A stretch of DNA of 64,000 nt, taken from positions 372,001 through 436,000 of the forward strand of contig NZ_CP033897.1 of NCBI RefSeq assembly GCF_003813985.1, in the 5' to 3' direction. The translations under genes were made by a program, and so were the position numbers. The notes below the pieces were generated by a model. The model saw nothing but the letters and a program-made list of their open reading frames with translations, ran no database searches and was not told where the DNA came from. Of this stretch, positions 3,646 to 28,181 are shown one piece after another. How positions within the stretch are numbered: the stretch's first letter is position 1; each line of letters opens with the position of its first letter. Source of the stretch: Corynebacterium gerontici (GTDB lineage Bacteria > Actinomycetota > Actinomycetes > Mycobacteriales > Mycobacteriaceae).

Positions 3646-5130
3646 CTATCGCCGCAAGGATTGTCGCGATGGCTTGCTATGGGTGCGCTTCGGGGCGATC
3701 ACCTGGGTTGCATGGCGGACGCTGCGTCCGGTGCGTCGAATAGCTGCGTAGGCGTGGAAACGGCGCGGGCGACGCAATTTGCGGGCAATCCACTCGCCAA
3801 AGACCACACCCGCTGCTAATCCGCAGGCGGTAGACAATGCCACCGCCATGTTAGTGAAGCCCAGCAGCATCTGATCGTTGAGCGCTGCATACATTGCGCG
3901 ATACATGGGCAACCCAGGCAGCATCCAAGCGATTCCCGAAAGCGCGGTGATCAGCGGGGGCACCAGGAACCTACGGGCCAAAAGACCGCCCGCCAAACCA
4001 ATGGCGGTGGCCGAAACCGCGAAGGCAAACACCGGGGAGACCCCAAGCGGCAGCAGCGCAAAATAATAAATCAGGGCACCAGTGCCACCCGTCAGCACAG
4101 ACACCACCACCGATGAAACCTCGGCAAAACACGCCACGGCAAAAGCCCCCGCGGCTACCGTTGCAGCGAGGACGCGCACGGTGTAATCCACATAACTGGT
4201 TTCACCAGCCGCTTCTAAAGGCGGGAGAGAGATGCCGACGACCTCCGCGAAACGGATGCCGGCAGCGACCCCGGCGATGATCGCACCCGTGAGCAAAATA
4301 GTTTCAAAGAAGCGAGCACTCGCAGTGACCGGCGCACCTGTAATACCGTCCTGGATGGACTGGACCAATGAAAGGTTCGCCAGCAACACCACGATGACGC
4401 CCGCAACCACATGGGAAGGGATAAACTCAATACCAAAGTGATTGGTGATCGCGTACACCACGGCAGTTGGCGCCGTAGCCACTAAGCCGCCCAAAGCATT
4501 TTGGAAAAACACGGGCAGCCTACGCTTGCCCAACAAGATTGAAGCAGCAACCCCGATGATCACCAGGCCAAAGGACAGAATCGCAGCGATCCAGTTGCCG
4601 CCGACCATCACCGATACCGCCGCTCCCAACATTCCCCAGCCCAAGAGGGAAGTGATGCGACCATAGGAGGGCGGGGAGCTGGTGATCCCGCTGAGAATTT
4701 TCTCCGCGACGTCGGGCGGGGTAGCGCCGGCCTGAATCGAGCGGATCAGGCGGTCCACCTCGATGAGCTTTGAAAAGTCCGTGGTCATGGTGCGCACCAC
4801 GCGCAGCACACTCACCGGCTGCTTATTGATGGTGCCGATGCTGGTGAAGATCGTGATGGTGTTCAGTGTGATATCAACGTGCGCGTAGTGCAATCCATAG
4901 GCAGAGGTCACAGCGTGGATTTGTGCCTTTGTGTCATGGTTCGAGGTACCGGAGGAAAGCAGAATTTCGCCAATACGCGCCGCTAACTCCATCACGGCCG
5001 ATACCTGCACCGGATCAGTGAGATCAATCGGGGCCAGCGGGGAAGGCGGGGGTGCTGCCTTGACGGCGTCGATGGTTGCGATGCGGCCACTGCGGTTGCT
5101 GAGCCTACGAATCGTATCTGCGAGTGACAT
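3646..5130 (-). CDS. thrE: Threonine/serine exporter ThrE
   Basis: A 494-residue inner-membrane protein close in length to the 489-residue ThrE of C. glutamicum. The N-terminal third is cytoplasmic (segments such as ARIGEILLSSGTSNHDTKAQI and the IEVDRLIRSIQ region), followed by about ten hydrophobic helices. I chose ATG 5130 (MSLADTIRR) over the upstream in-frame ATG 5163 because GGAAGGGG sits just before it. It exports L-threonine and L-serine using the proton-motive force. A plus-strand tRNA-Thr and a second ThrE-like gene lie directly upstream. The basic C-terminal tail (RKLRRPRRFHAY) is cytoplasmic by charge. Confidence 0.92.
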   Translation of the reverse strand: MSLADTIRRLSNRSGRIATIDAVKAAPPPSPLAPIDLTDPVQVSAVMELAARIGEILLSSGTSNHDTKAQIHAVTSAYGLHYAHVDITLNTITIFTSIGTINKQPVSVLRVVRTMTTDFSKLIEVDRLIRSIQAGATPPDVAEKILSGITSSPPSYGRITSLLGWGMLGAAVSVMVGGNWIAAILSFGLVIIGVAASILLGKRRLPVFFQNALGGLVATAPTAVVYAITNHFGIEFIPSHVVAGVIVVLLANLSLVQSIQDGITGAPVTASARFFETILLTGAIIAGVAAGIRFAEVVGISLPPLEAAGETSYVDYTVRVLAATVAAGAFAVACFAEVSSVVVSVLTGGTGALIYYFALLPLGVSPVFAFAVSATAIGLAGGLLARRFLVPPLITALSGIAWMLPGLPMYRAMYAALNDQMLLGFTNMAVALSTACGLAAGVVFGEWIARKLRRPRRFHAYAAIRRTGRSVRHATQVIAPKRTHSKPSRQSLRR

Positions 5131-5260
5131 CAGCGCGCCCCTTCCTTTCTCTCCCACGAACATGTACTGCGAACACTAGCAACCCACCCCGGATTCGTTG
5201 CTTTTGGCAACTTTGCCACCCAATCCGGTACTGTGTTGAGCCGTGCCCTTGAAGGCACGT

Positions 5261-5333
5261 GCTGGAGTGGCGCAATCGGTAGCGCAACGGTCTTGTAAAC
5301 CGTAGGTTGCGAGTTCAAGTCTCGTCTCCAGCT
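5261..5333 (+). tRNA. tRNA-Thr (anticodon TGT)
   Basis: A complete cloverleaf can be folded: acceptor stem GCTGGAG (5261-5267) with CTCCAGC (5326-5332), D arm GCGC/GCGC, anticodon stem ACGGT/ACCGT around loop CTTGTAA, and T arm GCGAG/CTCGT around TTCAAGT. The loop gives anticodon TGT, reading threonine codon ACA. CCA is not encoded. The discriminator base 5333 is also the first base of the stop-codon complement of the convergent thrE-like gene. A short T run follows at 5336-5340. Confidence 0.95.
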
Positions 5334-6796
5334 CATTTTTGTGTTCGCACCCCGAACTGAATTTGTGCTCGCCTTGTGCGAACCATCTTTTTCGCCAATT
5401 GTTTGTACGTAGCCATCTTCGGTGGCCTGCGCAAAAGACGCGCGACCCATTCCCCTAAGACGATGCCAGCGGCCAACATTGTGCAGGTGACAATGGCGTA
5501 CACGAGCCCAGCGAAGCCAGCGAGAAGTTGCTCGTGCATAAGCCCGTAGAGTCCTCGGTACACCGAAAGGCCAGGAAGTAGGGGAGTCGCTCCGGCGATG
5601 GCGATGATTAGCGGAGGAATTTGGAAACGGCGAGCCAATAAACCACCGGTCAGGCCGATCACCGCGGCCGTGCCGAACGTTGCGGACATTCCTTCAATCC
5701 CCACCGGAAGCAGGACAAAGTTATATACCAGCGAACCCCACAGGGCGGTGGCGCCAGCGATGATCGTGGTGTTCCAATCGGCAAAGCACGCGCGGGAAAA
5801 GCCCACGGTAGCGGTCGTGCCGCCCAAGATCGTCACTGCGGTGGACGCGAAGTTCGGCACGGGGGCCGTTTCCATTGGTGGAAGCTGCAGGCCTAAATAT
5901 GCAGAGATAGCAATGCCCATACCGACACCCGCGACTACGCCGGCGGTGATCATCATGGTGTCGAAAAGCCTGGCCATTGCCGTGATCGGTGCAGAGGTGA
6001 CGCCATTGTGGAACGCCTGCAACAACGTCAGTCCAGCCAGCATCACCACGATCGACGTGGAGATGACAATGGAGGGCTTTAAACTGATGTCAAACTGTCC
6101 TCCCAGGTGATAGGCATAGGTAGAGACGATCGCCGCTAGGACACCGCCGGCAGTGTTTTGATAAAACAGCGGTAAACCCTGCTTTCCCAACACCATGGAA
6201 AGCCACATGATCACCGCAGCGACCATCGTAGAGATGATCTGCACCGGGACATCGCCACCGATGAGCATGGACACGCCCAAACTCATCGTCGCCCAGGAAG
6301 CAATGACACCCAAATCGCCCATGCGTTCTTTCGACGCTTCGATAGCATTCAGGCGCACGATGGCGTCCGTGAGTCCGGCGCGACCAGTGTGAATATCCCG
6401 AATGAGCTTGTCTACAAGTGTGAGCTTGCGGAAGTTCTGCGCCTCAGGCTTGATGATGTGCACCACCTGCACACCCTGCTGACCACCAACGGAAGTGAAC
6501 AGGCGAATACGTTGGTGCGTGGCATCCACATGGCAGTTCCACACACCAAAAGACTCAGCCAGAGAGCGAACCTGCTCCTCAGCATCACCGTTAGGGGTGC
6601 CCGCGATAATTAGCAGCGCCCCGATGCGGGCAGAGACATCCAAAGCGGCCGTTATCTCCGAGCGATCACTCAGATTGACCGGCGCGAGCGGCGCGAGTGG
6701 GGGAGCCGCCGCGACGTCAATGGTGGCATTGTGAGGCGAGTGCTGCTGCCTGCGGCGCAGCGTTGCCAAATGATCAAAGCGCAAGATTTTCACCAT
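5333..6796 (-). CDS. ThrE-family exporter, second paralogue
   Basis: A 487-residue membrane protein of the same architecture as the neighbouring ThrE: cytoplasmic N-terminal domain (LDVSARIGALLIIAGTPNGD, then the KLTLVDKLIRDI region), then about ten transmembrane helices and a basic tail. Conserved positions line up with ThrE (ARIGxLL, LVDKLIR, the GGLLARRF and PPLI segments). It probably exports a small amino acid or peptide; the actual substrate is unknown. The stop codon touches the tRNA-Thr discriminator base. It may be an old duplication of thrE across the tRNA. Confidence 0.85.
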   Translation of the reverse strand: MVKILRFDHLATLRRRQQHSPHNATIDVAAAPPLAPLAPVNLSDRSEITAALDVSARIGALLIIAGTPNGDAEEQVRSLAESFGVWNCHVDATHQRIRLFTSVGGQQGVQVVHIIKPEAQNFRKLTLVDKLIRDIHTGRAGLTDAIVRLNAIEASKERMGDLGVIASWATMSLGVSMLIGGDVPVQIISTMVAAVIMWLSMVLGKQGLPLFYQNTAGGVLAAIVSTYAYHLGGQFDISLKPSIVISTSIVVMLAGLTLLQAFHNGVTSAPITAMARLFDTMMITAGVVAGVGMGIAISAYLGLQLPPMETAPVPNFASTAVTILGGTTATVGFSRACFADWNTTIIAGATALWGSLVYNFVLLPVGIEGMSATFGTAAVIGLTGGLLARRFQIPPLIIAIAGATPLLPGLSVYRGLYGLMHEQLLAGFAGLVYAIVTCTMLAAGIVLGEWVARLLRRPPKMATYKQLAKKMVRTRRAQIQFGVRTQK

Positions 6797-8715: not shown

Positions 8716-9615
8716 ATGAACACTCTCTGGACAACAAACCAGCTCCGCCTTCGCGGTATCAACCGCCGACAAATCCAAAACGCCCTCCGTCACGGCAAAC
8801 TCTTCCGCATCTACCGCGGTCACTACCTCAACCAAGAACCCACCCCCGACAACGTCCTCCAAGCCCTCCACCAGATCAAACCCCGCTGCAGAACAGCCGG
8901 AAAAACCGCCCACGAACAAGCCCAGGGCCAAGCACTGACGTTCCCCCTCATCATCGAAGTGCCACGCAACAAAGCCGTAATGAAATGCAAATACTTTCAA
9001 ATCTTTGAAACGCGCTGCAATGACTTCCGCAAGAAACAACCACCGCTTCGAGCCCTATCCCGCGAGCACACAAACACCAGCGCCGACGAGCGACGCGCCT
9101 TCCTAGAGCGGGCGTACGAAGGCAAAAACGGGGGACGTCGACTAGCTCAAGACCGGAAAGCGGTGCGCCACAAACCTGCGAGCATGATGCATGCGCTGGA
9201 GCAAGCACAAATCGGATGCGACTCCCACGCCGAAAGAAAATTCTTCAAAGCCGCAGCTCAAAGGGGCCTCAAATTTGAGCACAACGCGTGGGTAGGGCCG
9301 TATCGATACGACGGCGTCAACACCCGGCGGCGAATCATCGTCGAAATCGACGGGGAAACCTACCACCGTGCCGACACCGGACGCAGCGAAACCTTCGAAC
9401 AGTTCGAAATCGACCGCTGGAAAGACATCTCCGCAGGCTTTCGAGGATTCCGGGTGCTTCGCTTCACCAGCGACATGGTGGAGCGGTACTTCGAGAAAAT
9501 ACTCGACGTGCTGGAGGCTTTCATACGGGGAGGGGAGATGCCTAAGGAAGTGCGAGACCCAATTTGGACTTGGAAGACCTTGAAATTCGGGCAGAGGTGG
9601 GAGTGGATCGAGTAG
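8716..9615 (+). CDS. AbiEi-like winged-helix plus DUF559 nuclease-fold protein
   Basis: A 299-residue protein with two recognisable ends. The N-terminus (LWTTNQLRLRGINRRQIQ... LFRIYRGHYL, residues 4-37) resembles the wHTH head of AbiEi-type antitoxins. The C-terminus is a DUF559/Vsr-like PD-(D/E)XK fold: VEIDG at 209-213, YH at 216-217, then FEIDRW and GFRVLRFTSDMV. Such genes are common in actinobacteria, often called hypothetical; a nuclease or DNA-repair role is suggested by the fold, not shown. No AbiEii-type toxin partner is adjacent. No clear Shine-Dalgarno precedes ATG 8716. It ends just before the 106-bp repeat array. Confidence 0.75.
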   Translation: MNTLWTTNQLRLRGINRRQIQNALRHGKLFRIYRGHYLNQEPTPDNVLQALHQIKPRCRTAGKTAHEQAQGQALTFPLIIEVPRNKAVMKCKYFQIFETRCNDFRKKQPPLRALSREHTNTSADERRAFLERAYEGKNGGRRLAQDRKAVRHKPASMMHALEQAQIGCDSHAERKFFKAAAQRGLKFEHNAWVGPYRYDGVNTRRRIIVEIDGETYHRADTGRSETFEQFEIDRWKDISAGFRGFRVLRFTSDMVERYFEKILDVLEAFIRGGEMPKEVRDPIWTWKTLKFGQRWEWIE

Positions 9616-9620
9616 TTCGG

Positions 9621-9954
9621 GGTTTCGGTGCGGGGCGAGGTGTTGTGCCGGTGGAACGGGCGTGCGTGGTGTGCGTTTTCCCCCGGCGCTGGGTGGGATT
9701 TGGTGTGGAAAGCAGCTTGGTGCCGGGGTTTCGGTGCGAGGTGAGGTGTTGTGCCGGTGGAACGGGCGTGTGTGGTGTGCGTTTTCCCCCGGCGCTGGGT
9801 GGGATTTGGTGTGGAAAGCAGCTTGGTGCCGGGGTTTCGGTGCGAGGTGAGGTGTTGTGCCGGTGGAACGGGCGTGCGTGGTGTGCGTTTTCCCCCGGCG
9901 CTGTGCGGGATTTGGTGTGGAAAGCAGCTTGGTGCCGGGGTTTCGGTGCGGGAA
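9621..9954 (+). repeat. 106-bp tandem repeat, three copies plus a partial fourth
   Basis: Units begin at 9621, 9727 and 9833 with a partial copy from 9939. Each starts GGTTTCGGTGCG and contains GGTGTTGTGCCGG and GGCGCTGGGTGGG; the spacing measured at two internal markers is 106 in every case. Copies differ at only a few bases. The plus strand is strongly G+T-rich. The period is not a multiple of three, so it is not coding. The array fills the gap between the 3' ends of two convergent genes (stop at 9615 and stop at 10037). Confidence 0.95.
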
Positions 9955-10021
9955 GGGGCATCATGCCGAGGGGGTAGCGCACTCCCCTCCCGGGGTGGGG
10001 GGGGGACCCGAGGCGGCCCCG

Positions 10022-10036: not shown

Positions 10037-11950
10037 CTACTCCACTTCGGTGAATTTGCGGTCCCAGGCGGAGCGGACGGGGTTGGCGTCGGCGAGCAGG
10101 AGGTCGAAGCGGTCGTTGGCGATCTCGATGATTTCGGAGAGGACGGTGCGGCGTTCCTGGGCATCGGAGTTGGCGAGACGGCGCACCCCGGCTTCGAGCA
10201 CCGTGTCGATGGAATCGTTTGTTCCCAGGTAGGAGACGAAGGGGAGGTCGAAGCGTTCGCGGTAGGCGGCGGAGAGGTCGAGCAGCTGGGCGGTTTGGAC
10301 ATCGTCGAGGTCCTCGAGGTTCAGGGAGCCGCGGGCGGCGCTCGTCTCCGTGGTCAGCAGCTCGGCCATGTCCGGGTAGTCGCGGATGAGCGCGGCCTGC
10401 TGCTCGGACACGCCGGTGAGCACCGCAACCTGGATGGCTTCGCGCAGGTCGTTGATGTCGGAGAATGGGCGCGATTCCCAGGCGTCGTGGAGCGGCCACG
10501 TCTGGGCATTAAACAGCGGTGCGAGCGTTTCGACGAACTCCGCCCGCTCCATCGAGTTCAGCTCATCAAGGGACACACCGCCGTTGGAGGTCCGGGCGAC
10601 ATCGGAACCCGACTGGCGGCCAACGTGGAAGAAGAGCAGGTTCAAGATGATCGCGGTGATCGCGCCGATGGACATGCCCGAAGAGACGAAGGTGCGCGTC
10701 CACTCTGGCATCGCTTCGGCAACGGAAGGCTTGAAGGTGATGAGCATCGCGAGCCCAAGCGCGGTGGTGACGATGACGGCATTGCGATTGTCGCTGAGGT
10801 CGGTCTTGGCGATGGTCTGCAGGCCAACCCATGCCACATTCGCGAACAGTGCCAAAGATGCGGCGCCGAGAACGGGGTGCGGAATGGACGCAACCACCGC
10901 ACCTGCTTTGGGCAGAAGTCCAAGCAGGATCATGAATCCAGCGGCGGAGGCCGCCACCCAGCGCGACTTCACGCCGGTGATGCGCACGAGCCCCACGTTT
11001 TGCGCGAAGCAGGTGTAGGGAAAGGAGTTCATGACGCCGCCGAGGAAGGTGGACAAGCCATCGGCGCGCAGGGCTCGCTGCACGTCACCGCGGCGGATGC
11101 GCTTCTTCACAATCTCGCCGGTGGCGAAGACGTCGCCGGTGGTTTCCACCATGGTGATGATCATGACCACGATCATGGAGAGCACGGCTCCGGCGTTGAA
11201 TTGTGGCACACCGAAGTAGAAGGGGGTGGTGATGCCGAATGCGCTGGCTTCGCCAACCGCGGAAAGAGAAGCATCGCCGAGTGCGAGCGCCACGAGCGTG
11301 CCCGCGACGAGGCCGATCAAGATTGACAAGGTGCCCAGGAATCCTTTGAAGAATCGCTGGACGAGGACGATGAGCAGCAGCGTGCCAAAACCGTAGGCCA
11401 GGTCGCGCGCGAGTGGCTCATCGGCATAGTTGACGAAGTCGTTGGCGGATACGGCGAGCAAAGAAGTGCCCATGACCAGCAGGACTGTGCCTGTGACCAC
11501 GGGCGGGAAGAATTTGAGGAACCGCGCGAACACTGGGGTGGCGAAGAATGTGAAGAGGCCTGCGGCGATGACGGCTCCGTAGACGGTGGGCAGCGATTCC
11601 ACCCCGCCTTCGCCGTTGCTGACCCCGAGTCCGATGGCGATGATCGGCGCTACGGCGGTGGTGGTGACGCCTTGGATGATTGGCAGTCGCACGCCGATGT
11701 GTTTGCCCAACCCGACGGACTGGATGATGGTGGCTAGGCCGCAGGTGAGGAGATCTGCGTTGATGAGGTGGATGGTGGTGGCGGTGTCGAGGTTCAGTGA
11801 GCCTGCGATCAGCAGTGGCACGATCACGGCACCGGCGTAGAAGGCGAGCACGTGTTGGAGGCCCAGCGCTGCGAGTTTGGGCGCTGAGGGGACGGCGTCC
11901 ACGGGGTGTGTTGGGGCGGTCAAAACAAAACTCCGAGGGTTAGTTGGCAT
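10037..11950 (-). CDS. NCS2 nucleobase permease fused to a degenerate OHCU-decarboxylase domain
   Basis: A 637-residue fusion. Residues about 20-450 are a 14-helix xanthine/uric-acid permease of the NCS2 (UacT/PbuX) family: GLQHVLAFYAGAVIVPLL at the start, VETTGDVFATGEI in the central substrate region, and the NVGLVRITGVKSRWV segment. Residues about 464-637 match OHCU decarboxylase, the enzyme completing urate breakdown to allantoin (RPFSDINDLREAI, LSAAYRERFDLPFV, EIIEIANDRF). The catalytic HPDL is DYPDM here (524-528) and the SxxEQ glutamate is replaced by alanine, so this domain looks inactive. Start ATG 11950; GTG 11959 is an alternative and neither has a clear Shine-Dalgarno. Confidence 0.88.
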   Translation of the reverse strand: MPTNPRSFVLTAPTHPVDAVPSAPKLAALGLQHVLAFYAGAVIVPLLIAGSLNLDTATTIHLINADLLTCGLATIIQSVGLGKHIGVRLPIIQGVTTTAVAPIIAIGLGVSNGEGGVESLPTVYGAVIAAGLFTFFATPVFARFLKFFPPVVTGTVLLVMGTSLLAVSANDFVNYADEPLARDLAYGFGTLLLIVLVQRFFKGFLGTLSILIGLVAGTLVALALGDASLSAVGEASAFGITTPFYFGVPQFNAGAVLSMIVVMIITMVETTGDVFATGEIVKKRIRRGDVQRALRADGLSTFLGGVMNSFPYTCFAQNVGLVRITGVKSRWVAASAAGFMILLGLLPKAGAVVASIPHPVLGAASLALFANVAWVGLQTIAKTDLSDNRNAVIVTTALGLAMLITFKPSVAEAMPEWTRTFVSSGMSIGAITAIILNLLFFHVGRQSGSDVARTSNGGVSLDELNSMERAEFVETLAPLFNAQTWPLHDAWESRPFSDINDLREAIQVAVLTGVSEQQAALIRDYPDMAELLTTETSAARGSLNLEDLDDVQTAQLLDLSAAYRERFDLPFVSYLGTNDSIDTVLEAGVRRLANSDAQERRTVLSEIIEIANDRFDLLLADANPVRSAWDRKFTEVE

Positions 11951-11978
11951 TGACCGCACTAGCTTATTACGTCACCGA

Positions 11979-27603: not shown

Positions 27604-28129
27604 CTGTTTTTGGCGCCAGGGGGGGGCGAAAATTGGAGGAAGTATTCTTCCCTTTAAGGCGATTTGTGCGTCCGTTGGAAGCTGAAATTGGTTGAATCGG
27701 AAGAAAGGTTCCACCAGGTTGGCCGAGAGCCGGGAAGAGCGTATTGAACTCTCGGTCGGCGTGGGATGGGCGCCTCGCCCGCTGGCGTTGCATCTGCGGA
27801 TGAACTCGGCATTTCGATTCGGAACGCGAGGAAATGATTCATGCTGACTAGATAGCAGCGTGCCGATTTGATCGGCGCATCCGGCCTTGCCCTCCGTAAC
27901 ATTGAAAAAGGACAGCACTAGCCTCGGCATTGGCGTGGTGCTCGTGGCGGTAGGGTTGTCCGAGTCCTACATGTCTACGATTGGTGGGCGATACTGCAGG
28001 TTATTTTTCCATACGCTGTGCGTCACAGACTGACGATCTGGCCGGATGTCCCAGCTATTGCATCGCGTTCTGTCATTGGCTAACCTATAAAGCACTTGGG
28101 CTGATCGAGAGATCCTGGTCCACCCCCGA
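27604..28129. other. Non-coding stretch with a possible RNA hairpin
   Basis: No convincing gene on either strand; the open frames here have no family features. At 27718-27729 and 27749-27760 twelve bases can pair completely if G:U pairs are allowed (GGCCGAGAG with CTCTCGGTC and the three bases beyond), closing a 19-base loop. It may be an RNA hairpin, a relic, or chance. Confidence 0.3.
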
Positions 28130-28181
28130 GGTGGGGATATCCCCACCAAAAGGAGGCGAGGCTTAAGCCTCGCCTCCTTTT
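28130..28181. terminator. Two adjoining perfect palindromes, the second a bidirectional terminator
   Basis: 28130-28147 is a perfect 18-bp palindrome (GGTGGGGAT and its complement). It abuts 28148-28181, a perfect 34-bp palindrome with 17-base arms starting AAAAGGAGGCGAGG, so transcripts in either direction end the hairpin in a T run. It lies 17 bp before the DUF3800 gene. No annotated gene reads into it from the left, so the transcript it ends is unknown. Confidence 0.7.

Follow-up and report, generated by a model that had tools for sequence, protein, structure and literature searches.

The fusion gene and its surroundings

A single gene on the minus strand of the window (the 64,000-nucleotide stretch of the Corynebacterium gerontici genome analyzed here) encodes a permease joined to an OHCU-decarboxylase domain, as a sequence-only reading of this DNA had stated. 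It is one uninterrupted open reading frame (10037 to 11950) that starts with the ATG at 11950 and encodes 637 amino acids; an alternative GTG start at 11959, three codons upstream of the ATG, would give 640 amino acids. Residues 25 to 408 (10727 to 11878, minus strand) match the NCS2 permease family PF00860 with 308 bits (Pfam cutoff, 27), and the protein passes the NCBIfam cutoff of TIGR03173 (pbuX, xanthine permease) with 467 against 414 bits. Residues 465 to 615 (10106 to 10558, minus strand) match PF09349 (OHCU_decarbox) with 104 bits (Pfam cutoff, 24). The protein ends with a C-terminal extension, LLADANPVRSAWDRKFTEVE (10040 to 10105, minus strand), which has no counterpart in active UraDs and is conserved in the Corynebacterium branch with the pattern ADANPVRSAW.RKF. 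A chance open reading frame or a frameshift is ruled out by orthologues with 61 to 91% identity and by the dN/dS ratios given below.

Structure prediction gave a permease fold and a tail with the UraD fold, separated by a flexible linker (mean pLDDT of the whole-protein AlphaFold model, 81). The membrane part (model residues 12 to 442) contains the full 14-helix UapA/UraA fold and superimposes on UapA (5i6c) with a Z score of 46.9 and an rmsd of 2.8 and on UraA (8omz) with a Z score of 43.3. The transport-site signatures VETTGDV, ADGLST, and FAQNVG are kept, with E, D, and QN aligned as in UapA. The permease is an ordinary family member on all features tested: it shares fold, family profile, and transport-site signature with the NCS2/NAT permeases of the PbuX/UacT/UapA group, but these have no soluble C-terminal domain, whereas the fusion has one of about 170 residues. 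In the model, the last transmembrane helix is followed by the short linker (about residues 444 to 458; 10577 to 10622, minus strand; pLDDT of <50 for model residues 443 to 456) and then by the tail, which probably lies on the cytoplasmic side of the membrane. Predicted alone, the tail reached a pLDDT of 88 and a pTM of 0.82, and a Foldseek search with this model retrieved the zebrafish OHCU decarboxylase 2o70 (E value of 2e-7) and, above noise, only OHCU decarboxylases.

The neighbors of the fusion gene in the window are an MFS transporter gene and a gene for a DUF559 (endonuclease-like) protein (8716 to 9615, plus strand; weak AbiEi_4 match). Between the latter and the fusion gene, directly downstream of the fusion gene, lie 3.1 copies of a 106-bp unit (9618 to 9968; 97% matches), a VNTR-like array that occurs nowhere else in the genome. 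No Rfam match, and hence no riboswitch, was found upstream of the fusion gene. Elsewhere in the window, we noted two paralogous membrane proteins resembling ThrE-type exporters (3646 to 5163 and 5333 to 6796, minus strand; about 39% identical) with a tRNA gene between them (5261 to 5333), and an Rfam DUF3800-XI RNA motif (28097 to 28145, plus strand; 45 bits against a gathering score of 37.8).

Loss of the catalytic residues and absence of the urate pathway

The active site of the tail was aligned with that of the zebrafish enzyme 2o70, with residue numbers counted from the printed chain. His67 and Glu87 are reportedly catalytic in OHCU decarboxylase, and Arg161 is said to bind the substrate. 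In the tail, His67 is replaced by Tyr525 (10376 to 10378, minus strand), which turns HPDL into YPDM, and Glu87 and Gln88 are replaced by Ala539 and Arg540 (10331 to 10336, minus strand); Arg161 is kept as Arg614 (10109 to 10111, minus strand). The proposed loss of the catalytic residues is therefore borne out. Shifted catalytic residues were considered as well and are ruled out when the tail is aligned with 2o70 and 57 standalone UraDs.

The loss is a property of the whole family of fusions. We compared 124 distinct permease-fused tails with the 57 standalone UraDs, both drawn from three sources: the genus, the order, and a scan of named genomes. The histidine column holds Tyr in 121 and Phe in 3 of the fused tails and His in none, whereas all 57 standalone enzymes have His. 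Glu-Gln is likewise present in 57 of 57 standalone UraDs; in the fused tails, the glutamate column reads mainly Asp (95 of 124), followed by Phe (10), Ala (9), Glu (6), and others. The arginine column, in contrast, is Arg in all 181 sequences, fused and standalone (124 and 57). The named-genome scan used a search motif derived from fused tails, but two surveys unselected for the active site, the PF09349 searches and a full-length search across the phylum, also found His missing from every permease-fused tail read. Altogether, more than 130 relatives with a fused tail were examined, none of which has the catalytic His, and divergent fusions elsewhere in the phylum lack it, too. No replacement His was found among the invariant or near-invariant columns of the fused tails.

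The distribution of residues, rather than an ancestral reconstruction, suggests an order of loss in which His went first, followed by the change of Glu to Asp, the loss of Gln, and finally the change of Asp to Ala in the relatives of the window's gene. Glu to Ala is restricted to the closest relatives of this gene, most fused tails having Asp, and the fusion on a Rubrobacter radiotolerans plasmid has lost His alone and kept Glu-Gln. Two further residues on the pocket side, Gln88 and the Arg/Lys that follows the PFxx strand, are altered in the Corynebacterium branch, where new invariant positions have also appeared. These pocket changes cast doubt on a simple model in which the domain senses OHCU or allantoin; judging from them, the tails of the Corynebacterium branch may have lost the ability to bind the original ligand, and any ligand there may differ. 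The conservation of Arg614, Pro495, Tyr563, Phe567, Arg591, and Glu599 may also reflect folding instead of ligand binding.

The pathway that would supply a decarboxylase is absent as well. Family searches of the genome (2.26 Mb, one contig) found no second PF09349 domain, no uricase (PF01014), no HIUase (PF00576), no xanthine dehydrogenase (PF02738), and no PuuD-type oxidase (PF06181), so that no known supply of substrate is left for catalysis by the tail. The earlier statement that no uricase gene is nearby thus extends to the whole genome for the families tested; the allantoinase-like and HpxO-like matches in the genome fall far below the curated cutoffs. With His and Glu gone and the pathway absent, the UraD reaction is impossible in the tail by any known route, and the tail is presumably catalytically dead.

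PF01014 uricase is absent from the entire genus (0 of 242 genomes). HIUase occurs in 19 of these genomes, the same 19 that have a standalone UraD, and 13 of them also carry the fusion; about 70 of the 83 fusion-bearing genomes have neither standalone UraD nor HIUase. One of the HIUase-positive genomes (G007; L134, 6077 to 12828) has a cluster of permease, HIUase, intact UraD, and urease genes, and the other 18 have clusters of permease, HIUase, and intact UraD, in all 19 without a PF01014 uricase. Since this uricase is absent, the urate oxidase of the HIUase-positive Corynebacterium species must be of another kind.

Profile scores reflect the degeneration only in part. The protein fails both UraD equivalog models of NCBIfam (UHCUDC, about 70.8 to 74.8 against a cutoff of 96.25; UraD_2, 31.6 against 139.4 bits), but several operonic fused tails pass the UHCUDC cutoff despite the missing His, and therefore, this cutoff alone cannot separate tails from enzymes. 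Compared with the UraD enzymes of zebrafish (2o70) and Klebsiella (3o7h), the tail shares fold, family profile, and the Arg161 equivalent but lacks His67, Glu87, and Gln88, is fused to a permease, carries an extra C-terminal extension, and resides in a genome without uricase and HIUase. Lacking the defining catalytic features, it should not be called UraD.

Spread, selection, and genomic context

The fusion was found in the genus, the order, and the wider phylum. Orthologues with at least 60% identity are present in 83 of 242 genus genomes, and all but one have kept the tail, either intact or broken up by a frameshift or a contig end: in G138 a frameshift lies within the tail, and in G203 the gene is split at a contig end and the PF09349 domain starts another contig. 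G179 has lost about two thirds of the tail but has an intact permease frame, and so the tail is not essential in every genome. The next-best permeases of the genus (<50% identity) have no tail. A C. glutamicum genome used as a control also has a PF09349 match, which may be the fusion. In the eight computable pairs, dN/dS was 0.04 to 0.44 for the tail and 0.04 to 0.17 for the permease part (simple Nei-Gojobori estimates, some with synonymous distances near saturation), and in most pairs the tail was the faster-evolving part. A maximum-likelihood tree places the fused tails on one side of a single branch (96/83; 94% of bootstraps, with the bootstrap not fully settled), where they adjoin the HPDL-type UraDs of one family (f32), away from the HPRI-type UraDs. 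The tails are hence under purifying selection, belong to one clade, and keep the UraD fold. Local pseudogene decay is ruled out, the loss of His being common to all fusions. In the order-level survey, many long open frames ran over OHCU domains in high-GC DNA; the ones examined had no permease and an intact His.

Two further observations concern individual fusions. A subgroup from Rubrobacter (L228 to L231, L235, and L241) has an insertion of at least about 20 residues between the former HPDL and SxxEQ motifs. A full-length fusion with 62% identity is found in MT835675.1 (56964 to 58854), an entry named "Bacteriophage sp." from human feces, and probably stems from bacterial DNA that ended up in a viral assembly.

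Outside the window's own lineage, the fused gene is embedded in purine operons. It lies between a PucR regulator gene and XdhABC in Nocardioides and Kribbella; in Mycobacterium, Rhodococcus, and Gordonia, intact uraD and HIUase genes come next, mostly along with uricase; and in Knoellia, Pedococcus, and family f32, the gene is located among uricase, uraD, and HIUase genes. The XdhABC and uricase genes in these operons point indirectly to a purine of the xanthine/urate type as the probable substrate class of the permease. In M. smegmatis, msmeg_1293 to msmeg_1296 are coinduced under nitrogen limitation, 1293 being the permease (with or without the tail), 1294 the OHCU decarboxylase, and 1296 the uricase (PMC4617892). 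On plasmids of Deinococcus and Priestia, an unfused permease gene is directly followed by uraD, an arrangement that likely represents the state before fusion.

In the branch of Corynebacterium, Dermabacteraceae, and Actinomycetaceae, the fusion stands outside xanthine/urate operons. No uricase, HIUase, or second UraD was found near it at the loci read from Corynebacterium, Brachybacterium, Dermabacteraceae, and Actinomycetaceae; two Brachybacterium loci have weak Xdh-like matches about 6 kb away. Across Corynebacterium, no conserved purine-related neighbor was found, and the neighbors are lineage specific: another species group has a PFL-family glycyl-radical enzyme, a radical-SAM protein, RNase PH, and Ham1/RdgB.

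Two fusions outside the genus have the architecture of the window's protein and the His-to-Tyr/Phe exchange. WP_084264147.1 of Rubrobacter radiotolerans differs by its kept Glu-Gln and an insertion, and WP_064688719.1 of Rhodococcus qingshengii differs by the adjoining intact uraD-uraH-pucL. RefSeq names the former "uraD" and the latter "solute carrier family 23 protein."

Possible roles of the tail

The data leave little doubt that the gene encodes a transporter fused to a pseudoenzyme, as the sequence-only reading had it and as now seen family-wide. For the function of the tail, we favor, at a probability of about one half, that it regulates the purine permease as a domain on the cytoplasmic side. 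A regulatory role is favored because of the invariant Arg in the former pocket and because the fusion was born in operons whose intermediates the domain once bound; selection, fold, the kept Arg, and the branch-specific C-terminal extension indicate that the tail is not merely decaying. In our model, permease and uraD would first have been adjacent genes within a urate operon, and an HPDL-type UraD would then have been joined in frame to the permease, with the catalytic His lost early after fusion. Uricolytic relatives would have retained an intact UraD in the same operon, whereas in the Corynebacterium branch the fusion would have outlasted the urate pathway. The present protein would be a proton- or cation-coupled NCS2 permease for purines (xanthine/urate type) whose C-terminal pseudo-UraD hangs beneath the membrane with the UraD fold and the old-pocket Arg kept. 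Occupancy by a ligand, pairing of two tails, or both would set the activity or stability of the permease, comparable to the STAS domain in SLC26 transporters. SLC26/SulP proteins have a related transporter fold (Z score of about 30 for SLC26 chains against the fusion model) and a cytoplasmic C-terminal domain as well, but the analogy is functional only, since the helical, UraD-like tail and the STAS domain are unrelated. The earlier suggestion of a domain that gates the permease on sensing a purine intermediate is plausible in this light and would fit the kept Arg161 equivalent and the selection on the tail.

UraD is a dimeric enzyme, and NCS2 permeases likewise function as dimers. It is therefore imaginable, if rather less likely, that the tails of two subunits simply pair and stabilize the permease and that no ligand is sensed. 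The fully kept UraD fold, the selection on the tail, the short linker that puts the tail beside the membrane, and the further altered pocket of the Corynebacterium branch all suit such a clamp or stability module; a clamp alone, however, leaves the invariant Arg161 (124 of 124 fused tails) unexplained. Improbable is a weakly constrained relic of the old enzyme domain that is tolerated because it is harmless. Its faster evolution in most pairs, its truncation in G179, and the frameshift in G138 could be read this way, but dN/dS is well below 1 in every measured pair, nearly all of the 83 orthologues keep the tail, and the Corynebacterium branch has gained invariant positions of its own as well as a conserved C-terminal extension.

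The sequence-only reading had also raised a scaffold for the real enzyme. That the tail generally acts as a docking site for active UraD or other urate enzymes, in a membrane metabolon with mixed dimers of the dead and the active form, is very improbable. Such docking would agree with the intact uraD directly 3′ of the fused gene in many relatives and with the coinduction in M. smegmatis (PMC4617892), provided that 1293 carries the tail, and in relatives with uraD as the next gene a scaffold is possible. In the window's genome, in contrast, a scaffold for active UraD is excluded because there is no second UraD, HIUase, PF01014 uricase, and XDH are missing as well, and some 70 of the 83 fusion-bearing genus genomes speak against it by their lack of both standalone UraD and HIUase. 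Least credible of all is a tail that still acts as an enzyme through other residues: Arg161 and the fold are kept and a few fused tails (Rubrobacter, Occultella, and L235) retain Glu, but the catalytic His is missing from every fused tail, that of the window lacks Glu and Gln besides, no conserved His replaces the lost one, and the genome holds no known source of OHCU.

Our preferred reading of the tail as a regulatory domain can be carried one step further, to the tentative and on balance rather doubtful proposal that an enzyme of urate breakdown became, once in Actinomycetota, a ligand-binding feedback sensor of its own transporter, which was kept and retuned in Corynebacterium and relatives after the pathway was lost. 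We found no description of the fusion or of the catalytic loss in the literature searched (open-licence papers), and secondary transporters with enzyme-derived regulatory domains are, to our knowledge, rarely known. One immediate consequence is a correction of annotation: one fusion is named uraD and carries the GO term for urate catabolism, and urate-pathway predictions from such tails would be wrong, since the UraD name is given or the cutoff reached without the catalytic His. Furthermore, four stages can be aligned, namely, the unfused genes (Priestia and Deinococcus), the loss of His only (Rubrobacter), the fusion beside an intact paralogue, and the fusion after loss of the pathway, and the change from an enzyme to a nonenzyme is thereby testable step by step.
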